Origin: Chthoniobacter flavus
Lineage (GTDB): Bacteria; Verrucomicrobiota; Verrucomicrobiia; Chthoniobacterales; JACTMZ01
Direction: 5' to 3'
NCBI GenBank assembly: GCA_945871065.1
Contig: CAMBUL010000028.1
Span: 1-32,090 of the forward strand
DNA: 32,090 nt
Made by a program: the position numbers and the translations under genes. Under the pieces are notes generated by a model. The model was not told the DNA's origin and ran no database searches. It saw nothing but the letters and a program-made list of their open reading frames with translations. Shown here one piece after another: positions 12,721 to 19,904 of this stretch (the first letter of the stretch is position 1; each line of letters opens with the position of its first letter).

Positions 12721-12747
12721 AAAAAAAACTCCGGTCTTCAAACCGAG
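12721..12747 (-). terminator. Intrinsic terminator of the ATP synthase operon
   Basis: On the minus strand CTCGGT-TTGAAG-ACCGGAG forms a 6-bp stem with one bulged G, directly followed by eight T. The hairpin overlaps the last codons and TGA of atpC (12738-12740), so the operon ends almost at the stop codon. Confidence 0.7.
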
Positions 12748-13157
12748 CGGCGGCGGCGTTTGACGCCCAGCATGGCCAAGTTGCGCTTCAGTCCGGCTTC
12801 CAATCCGGCGGCCTCCTCGTCGCTCATGTTGGCCGCATTGGCCAGAGCGGTTTGCGCCCGCTCGATCGCCTTGGCCACTGCATCCTCATCGATCTCGCTC
12901 TCGCGCGTCACCATGTCGGTCAGGATGGAGATGCGGCCGGGCGTGATCTGGGCGAAGCCCTCGCCCACTGCGGCGTAAACCGTCTTGCCGTCATTGATCA
13001 CCACCAACTCACCCGGCTCGAGCATGGTCATGAGCGGTTCGTGCTGCGGGAGCACACCGATTTCCCCAGTCGTCGTCGGGATGACCACCTGATCGACCTG
13101 CTCCGCGGTACTGACCCCGGCGGGAGAGACGATTTCGAACTGGATTTTGGCGGCCAC
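12738..13157 (-). CDS. atpC: ATP synthase F1 epsilon subunit
   Basis: This 139-residue epsilon subunit is part of the F1 central stalk, coupling c-ring rotation to catalysis and inhibiting wasteful ATP hydrolysis. The N-terminal beta-sandwich shows IQFEIVSPAGVS, GEIGVLPQHEPLMTMLEPGE and AQITPGRISILTD. The C-terminal helical hairpin (AIERAQTALANAANMS and on) ends in a basic tail VKRRRRSV. It is the last gene of the operon, 3 bases after atpD, and its stop is inside the terminator hairpin. Confidence 0.95.
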   Translation of the reverse strand: MAAKIQFEIVSPAGVSTAEQVDQVVIPTTTGEIGVLPQHEPLMTMLEPGELVVINDGKTVYAAVGEGFAQITPGRISILTDMVTRESEIDEDAVAKAIERAQTALANAANMSDEEAAGLEAGLKRNLAMLGVKRRRRSV

Positions 13158-13160
13158 GCT

Positions 13161-14579
<1,419 letters not shown>

Positions 14580-15452
14580 TTAGCCCATGGCGATCTGGGC
14601 CGAGGAAATCTCGAGGATTTCCGTGGTGATCGCGGCCTGGCGTATTTTGTTGTATTCAAGGGTGAGGTCTTTGATGAGGGACTTGGCATTATCGGTGGCA
14701 TTCTTCATGGCCACCATGCGCGCACTCTGCTCGGACGCGCGGGCGTTGAGGATCATGGCATACAACTCGTTGCCGATGTAAAAAGGGAGCAACGCGTTGA
14801 GCACTTCTTGGGGGGAAGGTTCGAATTTGAAAGCGGACATGGCCTCCTCCACCGTAGTATCGGTATCCTCCACCTGCTTGCCGCCCATCTCGAAAGAGGC
14901 AATGGGTAGCACTTCGTGCGCCGCAGGCACCTGGAGCAGGGTGTTGATGAAATCGGTGTAAAGCACAACGGCACGGTCGCACTCGCCGGCCAGGAATTTT
15001 TCGATGATGAATTGCGCTACCGGTTTGACCTCCCCGTATTCCAGCGTGTCGCGCATCGGGAAGTCGGCCAGCAGGGGACGCTTGGTGCGGGCCAGAAAAT
15101 CAACCGCTTTTTTGCCCGAGGCAATGAAGCTGGTCGTAGCCGAATCGAATCGCTGGATCTCGCGAAAGAGGTTTGTGTTCAACCCGCCGCAAAGACCTTT
15201 GTCCGTCGCGACGACGTAGACCAAAGTGTGATGGACCGGGCGGGCCTGGAGGAGCGGATGGAGTTCGTCCTCGCTGTGCTTGCTCAAGGAGACAAGTACA
15301 CGGTTGAGCATGCGGGCGTAGGGACGGGCATCCAAGGCGCGCTGCTGCGCCTTGCGCATTTTCGCCGCGGCGATCATTTGCATCGCTTTGGTGATTTGCG
15401 CCGTGTTGCGGACCGATTTGATCCGGCGGCGGATGTCCCGTGTGCTCGGCAT
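14580..15452 (-). CDS. atpG: ATP synthase F1 gamma subunit
   Basis: This 290-residue subunit forms the rotating central shaft. The N-terminal helix reads MPSTRDIRRRIKSVRNTAQI and TKAMQMIAAAKMRKAQ, the usual gamma signature; the central Rossmann-like part holds YVVATDKGLCGGLNTNLFRE; and the C-terminal helix ends with LEYNKIRQAAITTEILEISS. All family landmarks are present at normal length. It lies 6 bases after atpA and 12 bases before atpD. Confidence 0.97.
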   Translation of the reverse strand: MPSTRDIRRRIKSVRNTAQITKAMQMIAAAKMRKAQQRALDARPYARMLNRVLVSLSKHSEDELHPLLQARPVHHTLVYVVATDKGLCGGLNTNLFREIQRFDSATTSFIASGKKAVDFLARTKRPLLADFPMRDTLEYGEVKPVAQFIIEKFLAGECDRAVVLYTDFINTLLQVPAAHEVLPIASFEMGGKQVEDTDTTVEEAMSAFKFEPSPQEVLNALLPFYIGNELYAMILNARASEQSARMVAMKNATDNAKSLIKDLTLEYNKIRQAAITTEILEISSAQIAMG

Positions 15453-15458
15453 GGGTCT

Positions 15459-16991
15459 TTACTTGTAGAATTGGGCAAACTCGTCGAAGGCGGCCTTCAG
15501 ATCGGCACCTAGCGCGTCATCGATCGCCTTCTTCGTGCGGATACTCTCGAGGAGGGAGGCTTTGCGCGTCTCGAGGAATTCCTGCTGCTTGGCTTGGAAG
15601 TCTTTGATTTTTTCGACCTCCACTTTGTCCATGTAGCCTTGCTGCATGGCGTAAAGCACCGCGGCCTGCATTTCGACCGGCAGCGGCTGGTATTGTTGCT
15701 GCTTGAAAAGTTCGACAATACGGCGTCCGCGCTCGAGGAGGCCTTTGGTTTTGTCGTCCAAGTCGGACCCGAACTGGGCAAAGGCCGCCATTTCACGGAA
15801 CTGGGCCAGCTCTCCCTTGATCTTGCCGGCCACCTGCTTGATCGCCTTGATTTGCGCGGCGGAACCGACGCGGCTGACCGACAGGCCCACGTTGATGGCC
15901 GGCCGAATGCCTTGGTAAAACAAATCGCCCTCAAGATAGATCTGGCCGTCGGTGATGGAAATGACGTTGGTCGGAATGTAGGCCGAGACGTCGCCGGCCT
16001 GCGTTTCGATGATAGGCAAAGCGGTGAGTGATCCCCCGCCCGCCTCTTCACTCAAACGCGCGCTGCGTTCGAGCAGGCGGGAGTGGAGGTAGAAGACGTC
16101 GCCCGGATAAGCTTCGCGGCCGGACGGACGTTTGAGCAGCAGTGACACCTGACGGTAGGCCACGGCCTGCTTGGACAAGTCATCGAAAACAATGAGCGCA
16201 TCCATGCCATTGTCCATGAACCATTCGCCGATCGCCGCGCCCGCGAAGGGCGCCAGGTACTGGCTGGCCGCGTCGTCCGAGGCCGAAGCCACCACGACGA
16301 TGGTGTAAGGCATGGCACCTTCCTTTTCCAAGGTGGCAATAACCCGCGCCACGTTGGCGTTCTTTTGGCCGATCGCCACGTAAATCGAATAAAGCGGACG
16401 GAAATCTTTGTCGCCCAAGGCCTCGCCCTGCTTGTTCAGGCGGGCTTGGCTGATAATCGAGTCGATCGCCACCGTGGTCTTGCCGGTGGCGCGGTCGCCG
16501 ATGATCAGCTCACGCTGTCCGCGTCCGATCGGAATCATCGCGTCGATCGCCATGATGCCGGTCTGCACCGGTTGGGTCACGGGGCGGCGCTTGATGATGC
16601 CGGGGGCGATTTTTTCCATCGGGTAGTAGGTGGTCGCCTCGATCGGTCCCTTCCCGTCGATCGGTTCGCCGAGCGTGTTGACCACGCGGCCGAGGAGCGC
16701 TTTGCCCACCGGGACGGAAAGGAGCCGTCCGGTCGTTTTGACCTCGTCGCCCTCTTTGATGTCGCCGTAGCTGCCGAGGAGAACGACACCGACTTCGTTT
16801 TCTTCCAGGTTGAGGGCGAGGCCGAAGACGCCGCCGGGGAATTCCACCATTTCGTTGAGCATGACATTGCTCAACCCTTCGACGCGGGCGATGCCATCGC
16901 CGACTTCGCGGACTTTGCCGGTGTTGGTGTGCGCGGCGCCGGCTTGCAGGCCTTTGATCTTGGATTCGATTTCTTCAACGAGTGTGCTCAT
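15459..16991 (-). CDS. atpA: ATP synthase F1 alpha subunit
   Basis: This 510-residue subunit alternates with beta in F1 and carries regulatory nucleotide sites. Seen are the N-terminal [20 protein letters not shown], the P-loop GDRATGKT (usually GDRQTGKT, here Q to A), the [20 protein letters not shown] segment, and [20 protein letters not shown] with the conserved Arg of the arginine finger. The single Q-to-A P-loop change is in the non-catalytic subunit and should be tolerated. It lies 23 bases after atpH. Confidence 0.98.
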
Positions 16992-17014: not shown

Positions 17015-17401
17015 TCAAACGGGTAGGGCTTCGAGACGGGCGCGGACACTGCCGTCCCACACGTCACTGCCGACGCGCACGCGCAGACCGCCGATCAGGT
17101 CGGGGCGCACCGCGGTAGCAAAGGTCAGGTCGTCGCCGTGGGACCGCGTGATCTCGTCGCGGACTTCTTTCATGGCGGCTTCGGAGAGAGGCGTGGCGCT
17201 CTCGATCACCGCATGGCGGCGCTCCAACTCGAGGCGGACCAGACGCGAGAAAACCTGCAAGATGCCAAGGTAGCCGCGCGGTTGGTCCGTCGCCACTGCT
17301 TCGGCCACGGCACGGACGCGCGTCGCGTCGAGTCGTCCTCCGGTCAGACAACCGCGGAAGAGCGAACGGGCGTTTTTGCGGGCCTCGCGGGGAGATCTCA
17401 T
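17015..17401 (-). CDS. atpH: ATP synthase F1 delta subunit, short form
   Basis: This subunit links F1 to the peripheral stalk. From ATG 17401 it has 128 residues, against about 175-185 in most bacteria; a start at 17458 would overlap atpF by 32 bases and add an Arg-rich, non-homologous leader. The N-terminal region SPREARKNARSLFRGCLTGG plus PRGYLGILQVFSRLVRLELE corresponds to the alpha-helical domain in condensed form, and the C-terminus LIGGLRVRVGSDVWDGSVRA has the OSCP/delta signature. The protein therefore appears to retain the C-terminal anchor with a trimmed N-terminal domain. The family call rests on the C-terminal signature and operon position. Confidence 0.9.
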   Translation of the reverse strand: MRSPREARKNARSLFRGCLTGGRLDATRVRAVAEAVATDQPRGYLGILQVFSRLVRLELERRHAVIESATPLSEAAMKEVRDEITRSHGDDLTFATAVRPDLIGGLRVRVGSDVWDGSVRARLEALPV

Positions 17402-17426: not shown

Positions 17427-17936
17427 TCACGCCGCGATCTCCTTGATCGTCTCGTCATTGAGACGCTTCTGGTCGTCAGCGGTGAGGATTTTGCCGGTGA
17501 CTTTCGAGGTCGTGGCGGCGACCAGGCTGACCATGGCGCTTTTCACTTCGGCCTCCATCTTGCGGCGGTCCTGTTCGATCGACTCGTGGGCTTTGCGAAT
17601 GACGCCCTCGGCCTCGCCGATCGCTTCCTGCACGCGTTTCTCGCGCACCGCTTCGGCGCTGGCCCGGGCCTCGTCGATGAGGGCTTTGGCTTCCAGGTCG
17701 GCTTGGCCGAGAATTTCCTTGTAGCGCGCGTCGGCGGCGGCCAGTTGCTGCTTGATTTTCTCGGCGTTTTCCTGCGCCTCGGCAATGCGGCGTCGGCGTT
17801 CGGCCAGCACGTTGACGATCGGGCCGAAGGCGTATTTGTTCAGCACCCAATAAACGATGATGAAGATGATCGTCTGGGCGATGAACTTCGGCCAAGTGAC
17901 GCCGAAGCTGGCTAGAAGGTCTTGGAGAACGTTCAT
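17427..17936 (-). CDS. atpF: ATP synthase F0 b subunit
   Basis: This 169-residue protein forms the peripheral stalk. One membrane helix (PKFIAQTIIFIIVYWVLNKY, about residues 16-35) is followed by a long charged coiled coil (AERRRRIAEAQENAEKIKQQ and onward) with the conserved basic start. Only one b-type gene is present, so the stalk should be a b homodimer. It lies between atpE and atpH in the standard order. Confidence 0.95.
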   Translation of the reverse strand: MNVLQDLLASFGVTWPKFIAQTIIFIIVYWVLNKYAFGPIVNVLAERRRRIAEAQENAEKIKQQLAAADARYKEILGQADLEAKALIDEARASAEAVREKRVQEAIGEAEGVIRKAHESIEQDRRKMEAEVKSAMVSLVAATTSKVTGKILTADDQKRLNDETIKEIAA

Positions 17937-17991: not shown

Positions 17992-18234
17992 TTACTGACC
18001 CGCGAAGGCGCGGATCAGGGCATAAATGGCGATGGCTTCCGCCAACGCCATGCCAAGGATGGCGAGGGTCATCACCTTGCCGAAGGCGCCGGGATTGCGG
18101 CCGACGGCCTCCACGGCACGGCCGCCGATGAGACCGATGCCGATACCGGCCCCGGCCCCGGCCATACCGAGGGTGAAACTACCCGTGATGCCGCCCGCGG
18201 TGGCGGCGGCTTCTGCTATGAGTGAGATGATCAT
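17992..18234 (-). CDS. atpE: ATP synthase F0 c subunit
   Basis: This 80-residue double-helix proteolipid forms the rotor ring. Helix 1 is glycine-rich (AGAGAGIGIGLIGGRAVEAV), the polar loop is GRNP, and helix 2 carries the ion-binding Glu in GMALAEAIAIYAL. The residues next to that Glu are Ala and Ile rather than the Ser/Thr of Na+-type rings, and helix 1 lacks the Na+-ligand Gln, so a proton ring is inferred. It follows atpB by 74 bases. Confidence 0.96.
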   Translation of the reverse strand: MIISLIAEAAATAGGITGSFTLGMAGAGAGIGIGLIGGRAVEAVGRNPGAFGKVMTLAILGMALAEAIAIYALIRAFAGQ

Positions 18235-19175: not shown

Positions 19176-19182
19176 CGGAGAT

Positions 19183-19210
19183 AAAAAAGCCGCAAGCGCG
19201 AACTCGCGGC
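19183..19210 (-). terminator. Terminator/attenuator-like hairpin in the atpB leader
   Basis: On the minus strand GCCGCGAG-TTCGCG-CTTGCGGC forms an 8-bp stem with one G-U pair, followed by six T (19183-19188). It ends 7 bases before the atpB ATG. It could end transcripts of the decayed symporter, or act as an attenuator or 5' stabiliser of the atp mRNA. Confidence 0.6.
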
Positions 19211-19219
19211 CGAACACTT

Positions 19220-19249
19220 CTTATAAGCTGGTCTAATAATCCGACTCAA
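19220..19249 (-). promoter_or_regulatory. Candidate promoter of the ATP synthase operon
   Basis: On the minus strand, TTGAGT (19244-19249), an 18-base spacer and TATAAG (19220-19225) form a sigma-70-like promoter. Transcription would start near 19213, so the leader would consist almost only of the hairpin and T-tract at 19183-19210. Confidence 0.55.
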
Positions 19250-19323
19250 GAGCGAATTACGCGGAGAAACACCACAAAAACCTTTGCTCCCCCGTGGCAG
19301 GACCCGCTGAGCCCAGAGCGCCC

Positions 19324-19881
19324 CTAACGACCGGAGGAGTGGGGCGGCGCTCCGCAGAACCGGGACACCCCCAGCCCGACCAAAAGGATGACCAACGTCC
19401 CCACCACCACAATCATAAAGCTGTGGAACGGGCTCTGTCATTCCGCCGGCCACGCCGCCGATCCGGGGGTGAGGGTCATCCAGAGGATAACCAGGACCCC
19501 GGCCAGCACAGCGGTGACCGCCGCCGGATTCCCCGCCCGCCGCGAGATCAGCCCGAGCAAAAACAAACCCAGCATCCCGCCGGCAAAAATCCCGGAAAGT
19601 GTCCACCAGGCATCGAGTGCCGCTTTGACCCCGATCATGGCCAGCGCCACGCCGGTGCCCAGCGCACCCCAGACCAGCGACGCCCCGTGCAGAACGCGCA
19701 TCAACTCGCGCTCACCGGCCTCCGGCCGGAAAAATCTTTGATACCAATCGGTCAACAACAGCGTGGCCACGGTCGAACTCCGCCCCGAGCGGTAAAAATA
19801 TCATCCCACCCCGAGCATGGCGGCAAAGTAAAGACCGAGCACCACCCAGTCGACCAACGGAAGCGCTGCGGTTTCTATCAT
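19324..19881 (-). pseudogene. Sodium:solute symporter (SSS family) remnant
   Basis: A single minus-strand frame keeps both ends of an SSS-family transporter but lacks its middle. The N-terminus from ATG 19881 reads MIETAALPLVDWVVLGLYFA then [19 protein letters not shown]. It joins directly to the C-terminal part [20 protein letters not shown], with [20 protein letters not shown] later. A second in-frame TGA (19438-19440) precedes QSPFHSFMIVVVGTLVILLV. Roughly 350 residues of the usual 500 or more are gone. The first TGA sits where relatives usually have Trp, and the second may do so too. The deletion plus stops makes it non-functional. Confidence 0.82.
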
Positions 19882-19904
19882 CTCAACTTTCACCCATTGC
19901 CCTT

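Follow-up and report, generated by a model that had tools for sequence, protein, structure and literature searches.

The ATP-synthase operon in an uncultured genus of Verrucomicrobia-type bacteria is preceded by a short leader consisting of a promoter, a hairpin and a T-run (Table 1), which, as judged from its sequence conservation, is real, under selection and specific to this genus. That it acts on the operon as a cis-regulatory element restricted to this genus is strongly supported. For the hairpin itself we tentatively favour a function as a leaky promoter-proximal intrinsic terminator, whose read-through would be set by a trans-acting factor. Leaders of this kind are already known in general; the minimal form is unusual. 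The source of the leader is a MAG of 2.53 Mb, and we use the term window for the whole analysed stretch of 32,090 nucleotides.

Table 1. Features of the atpB leader and the ATP-synthase operon in the window (leader elements in order of transcription).
Feature	Position	Strand	Remarks
Leader sequence	19256->19173	(-)	TTCGCTC TTGAGT CGGATTATTAGACCAGCT TATAAG AAGT GTTC, hairpin GGCCGCGAGT-TCGC-GCTTGCGGCT, TTTTT ATCTCCG ATG
-35 box TTGAGT	19249-19244	(-)	CTTGA invariant in 10 genomes
Spacer between -35 and -10 box		(-)	18 bases, CGGATTATTAGACCAGCT
-10 box TATAAG	19225-19220	(-)	TATAA invariant in 10 genomes
Gap from -10 box to hairpin		(-)	8 bases
GTTC, probable transcription-start region	19215-19212	(-)	invariant; 5-8 bases past -10 box; predicted start
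Leader hairpin GGCCGCGAGT-TCGC-GCTTGCGGCT	19211-19188	(-)	10 bp, loop TCGC
Conserved 9-bp part of hairpin	19210-19189	(-)	22 bases
T6 run directly abutting the stem	19188-19183	(-)	4 of 6 columns invariant; first T closes the stem
ATCTCCG spacer from T-run to start codon	19182-19176	(-)	no Shine-Dalgarno; varies among genomes
atpB ATG	19175-19173	(-)
atpB, F0 subunit a, 288 aa	18309..19175	(-)	Pfam
atpE	17992..18234	(-)	Pfam
atpF	17427..17936	(-)	Pfam
atpH	17015..17401	(-)	Pfam
atpA	15459..16991	(-)	Pfam
atpG	14580..15452	(-)	Pfam
atpD	13161..14567	(-)	Pfam
atpC	12738..13157	(-)	Pfam
Terminator-like hairpin after atpC	12746-12731

The first-pass annotation of this DNA had described a TTGAGT-18-TATAAG promoter, and this layout was confirmed on the minus strand, with the hairpin 8 bases further on. 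The six T and the 7 bases from there to the atpB start were also placed correctly, and the eight ATP synthase genes reported downstream all have Pfam matches, in the order B, E, F, H, A, G, D, C. The stem had been given as 8 bp and is actually 10 bp long, including three G.U pairs; it closes a 4-base loop and has an energy of about -16.5 kcal/mol. With its G+C-rich stem directly followed by a U-run, the hairpin has the sequence features by which intrinsic terminators are recognised. Upstream of the promoter, positions 19316-19900 on the minus strand resemble the decayed 3' part of a sodium:solute symporter gene with a broken frame, and the tested ORFs of this stretch have no Pfam match.

The promoter alone is within chance, as 9 of its 12 bases match, and it is not listed by the strict promoter scan, which requires T as the last base of the -10 box. 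Among 20,000 dinucleotide shuffles of the 141-base intergenic region, 175 (0.9%) contained a hairpin of 9 bp or more with T5 after it. We accept the leader as real because it is conserved across the genus, the promoter by itself being unremarkable. The genus sample comprised the window's genome and ten relatives, nine of which have a readable atpB leader. All 10 genomes with a readable leader carry the block, in the same order and with nearly the same spacing, and the distance from hairpin to ATG is 33-35 bases across the genus copies. The AtpB proteins of these ten genomes are 72-97% identical to that of the window. The hairpin has 17 of 22 invariant columns, loop included, compared to 6 of 89 fourfold atpB sites (Fisher P=4e-11; ten genomes), and the mean pairwise identity is 95% in the hairpin and 53% at the fourfold sites. 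The constraint extends to the T-run (P=3e-4 on the fourfold rate). In more distant members the DNA further upstream is unrelated, so the leader block travels together with atpB.

Conservation of the hairpin in close relatives, which the first-pass annotation had named as its own test, holds in 9 of the 10 genomes (8 of the nine relatives). The exception is genome G005 (AtpB identity 96%), in which two breaks weaken the stem, which folds to -7.9 kcal/mol. In the G005 leader (L093, G005:C148:35864-35947) the first U is altered too and the rest is conserved; it is either a natural variant or an assembly error. Two-sided compensatory changes do not occur in the ten genomes. The stem is near-invariant, with 97.8% of cells paired, and because it hardly varies, covariation neither supports nor refutes the pairing.

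Outside the genus the leader was not found in the genomes of the order that were searched. When 213 genomes of the order were searched with a covariance model built on the 84-base block, exactly the ten genus genomes matched; the block is absent from the other 203, one of which is an incomplete genus member. None of 42 genomes from twelve other families has a comparable hairpin before atpB, compared to 9 of 10 in the genus (P=3e-9). If at most one mismatch to the 20-base hairpin core is allowed, the genus genomes have matches only before atpB; the copy of genome G007 at that place has diverged by two mismatches. The few other genus sites with two or three core mismatches are at about the level of a backward-pattern control, and with one near-exact hairpin copy per genome a dispersed repeat is ruled out. 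Exact matches to the 22-mer are found in records named Chthoniobacter, Chthoniobacterales and uncultured Verrucomicrobia, and in one Sphingomonas MAG; the latter match looks like chance, as both a T-run and any trace of the promoter block are missing there. No Rfam family matches the leader even at E<=1, so the hairpin is not assigned to any RNA family known there, and it was not found in viral contigs. In the literature searched we found no report of attenuation or of a leader hairpin at an atp operon.

For comparison with terminators at gene ends we surveyed 688 kb of the sister genome G010 with 564 crudely predicted genes. Hairpins with T-runs are typically located 20-40 bases past stop codons there and have energies of roughly -13 to -26 kcal/mol. 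The atpB hairpin of G010, at -15.9 kcal/mol, is inside this range by energy and T-run, and the survey shows no other terminator-like hairpin on the same strand in the 40 bases preceding a start. Being gene-end-like and uniquely placed before a start in G010, the atpB hairpin is by sequence a terminator in the wrong place. It does not terminate the upstream gene: the predicted end of that gene is 405 bases away in G010, and the hairpin follows atpB while the upstream DNA differs.

According to the reading that we favour, RNA polymerase would start at or just after GTTC, at about 19215-19210; this predicted start lies among pyrimidines at the usual distance from the -10 box. Some 25 transcribed bases would fold at once into the hairpin, and the polymerase would reach the U-run at about +31 to +33. 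There a fraction of the complexes would release a short RNA of probably ~30 bases, and the remaining complexes would read through into atpB-E-F-H-A-G-D-C. Read-through may be tuned via the hairpin or the polymerase, for example by a NusA/NusG-type factor or by a protein that binds RNA. Since no antiterminator can form, the read-through fraction would be set by such an influence, which would also account for the loop and the G.U pairs being no less invariant than the stem. The read-through mRNA would begin with the hairpin 3-5 bases from its 5' end and could also be protected by it. The window's genome encodes two NusG-family genes, the second of which (L115, G000:C89:4912-5190) is possibly a specialised NusG paralogue.

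We prefer the leaky terminator because it accounts for the U-run and for the exact junction between stem and U-run; the constrained T-run counts for termination since a pure stabiliser or a DNA operator would not need one. Against it, such a terminator is costly before an essential, highly expressed operon. Furthermore, given its two stem breaks and weak fold, the G005 leader suggests that a strong hairpin is dispensable in that genome, if the assembly is right. A more specific version, which we regard as quite doubtful, is a minimal attenuator of an F-type ATP synthase, with promoter, hairpin and U-run in ~33 transcribed bases and no antiterminator, whose read-through would depend on an energy- or growth-related factor acting in trans; the lineage lacks the Rex control that its relatives appear to have at this promoter.

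It is possible, though we consider it rather doubtful, that the hairpin serves as a 5'-end stabiliser. Lying some 5 bases or less from the 5' end of the mRNA, it would block pyrophosphohydrolase and 5'-end-dependent RNase E, and the unfolded U-rich spacer would keep the atpB start codon open. The geometry agrees with this, as the promoter position predicts a stem near the mRNA 5' end, an RNase E/G family protein is encoded in the window's genome, the computed accessibility of the ribosome site at atpB is moderate to high, and the class of 5'-terminal stem-loops is established in E. coli for ompA and papA, as indicated by the reference list of PMC3997798. However, the stem alone would suffice for stabilisation, which leaves the invariant loop, the conserved G.U pairs and the stem-touching T-run unexplained, and the same arrangement is found at no other gene in the 688 kb of G010. 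Conservation at the sequence level, loop included, would fit a 22-base imperfect inverted repeat which a regulator binds as DNA in the initially transcribed region or as 5' RNA, blocking or tuning expression with no real termination taking place, and some other control is plausible in a genus that has neither Rex nor the Rex operator. Nevertheless such a sequence-specific site is unlikely: the G.U pairs are conserved positions at which the DNA dyad is imperfect, the two stem changes of one base each that occur outside G005 preserve the RNA pairing and break the dyad, the genome has no second copy, and the T-run is again unexplained. The terminator, 5' stabiliser and binding-site readings are not mutually exclusive.

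Classical attenuation via alternative RNA folds or a leader peptide is very unlikely, even with a hairpin and T-run in front of a biosynthetic-type operon. The hairpin begins 0-5 transcribed bases from the predicted 5' end, so neither an antiterminator nor a leader peptide fits, and neither of these marks of an RNA-switch attenuator is found upstream of the terminator. An RNAalifold consensus fold does pair the leader with Ala codons early in atpB and includes one covarying pair, but this downstream partner would be transcribed only after the termination decision. The pairing between leader and coding region is not above that of synonymous recodings (fractions 0.07-0.81), and the conserved Ala and Asp/Glu codons explain the conserved bases of this fold, which we rejected. 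The covarying columns, 6 and 86 of A2 (window position 19211 and the third base of atpB codon 15), show G-C, C-G and U.G with one mismatch; with so few independent events this does not count as evidence. Hence, of the attenuation proposed by the first-pass annotation, the classical type has become unlikely and the part that stands as a possibility is termination modulated by a trans-acting factor; the stabilising 5' hairpin, its other proposal, is likewise a possibility. A coding origin, with the GTG at 19217 as the atpB start and the N-terminus encoded by the hairpin, has a negligible probability. The frame is open from this GTG in the window's genome, but in the alignment the codon is GCG or otherwise absent in several sisters (e.g. 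G010, G002 and G008) that keep the hairpin, which rules out protein coding as the origin of the hairpin conservation.

The U-run had also been proposed as a ribosome landing site in place of a Shine-Dalgarno (SD) sequence, for which we found little support. Since the genus as a whole is poor in SD sequences, the missing SD at atpB is ordinary: in a first count SD cores before starts were at background (10.5% versus 10.1%), and a larger set of starts showed a small SD peak at about -12 to -10. The window's genome does have the 16S-type 3' end GGATCACCTCCTTT, and Verrucomicrobia that combine scarce SD sequences with an intact anti-SD are known (PMC10783764). Before starts, TTTT is enriched 1.45x and AAAA 1.54x. 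As TTTT is no more enriched than AAAA, its enrichment reflects only general A+T richness, and the U-run as a genome-wide landing signal is ruled out. In G010 contigs C1-C10 (L038-L057, L095-L112), start codons are preferentially preceded by CC (29% of the ATG starts) and SD motifs are scarce.

In some other members of the order atpB is preceded by a different element. A perfect Rex-type palindrome TTGTGAA-N4-TTCACAA before atpB was found in 16 of 19 Rex-encoding genomes compared to 2 of 33 genomes without a Rex match (P=1e-8, with phylogeny ignored). The palindromes lie 100-450 bases upstream of atpB (L012-L031, L062-L083), usually with a CTTG -35 box a few bases further downstream. Many other families of the order have a CTTG box before atpB at the position that the -35 box occupies in the present genus. 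This pattern suggests that Rex may control the ATP synthase in Rex-encoding relatives. The Rex N-terminal domain is found in 0 of 11 genus genomes, and there is no Rex operator before atpB in the genus, the best match having 5-6 mismatches. A replacement of Rex control by the hairpin is a suggestion and not a result, because other Rex-less families are also without the hairpin.

The closest parallel in anatomy is greA/GraL of E. coli, a different gene in a different phylum, where the promoter is likewise followed by a close intrinsic terminator in the 5' UTR. According to the part of PMC6829880 that describes it, about two thirds of the transcripts stop at this regulated terminator, with 19 bases ahead of the hairpin compared to 3-5 in the atpB leader. 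The GraL RNAs end ~90 bases before the greA start (+150), whereas the atpB T-run ends 7 bases before the ATG. That account describes no classical antiterminator for greA/GraL, and the atpB leader has no room for one; greA/GraL yields short terminated RNAs, of which the atpB-leader counterpart is only proposed. The atpB leader shares with the ompA and papA stem-loops a strong hairpin a few bases from the mRNA 5' end, here a predicted one; unlike these it has a stem-touching conserved T-run and a near-invariant primary sequence including the loop. In the 5' terminators and attenuators of Naville and Gautheret, as presented in the main text of PMC2965389, the shared feature is a same-strand terminator before a gene start, up to 300 bases before the gene and for rimP 4-130 bases from the start; this main text names no ATP-synthase leader. 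Unlike catalogued 5' attenuators, the atpB leader has no riboswitch, T-box or leader peptide. In Streptomyces avermitilis Rex represses the atp operon (atpIBEFHAGDC; PMC5355995), which likewise places a point of transcriptional control at the promoter of the atp operon, in contrast to the present genus, which has neither Rex nor its operator.

The control of ATP-synthase expression is poorly known beyond a few model bacteria. The leader described here offers a compact, testable example of control in early elongation, in a genus that lacks its relatives' Rex operator. It also shows that selection can act strongly on terminator-like leaders with no room for an RNA switch, and attenuator surveys that seek alternative folds could miss such leaders.
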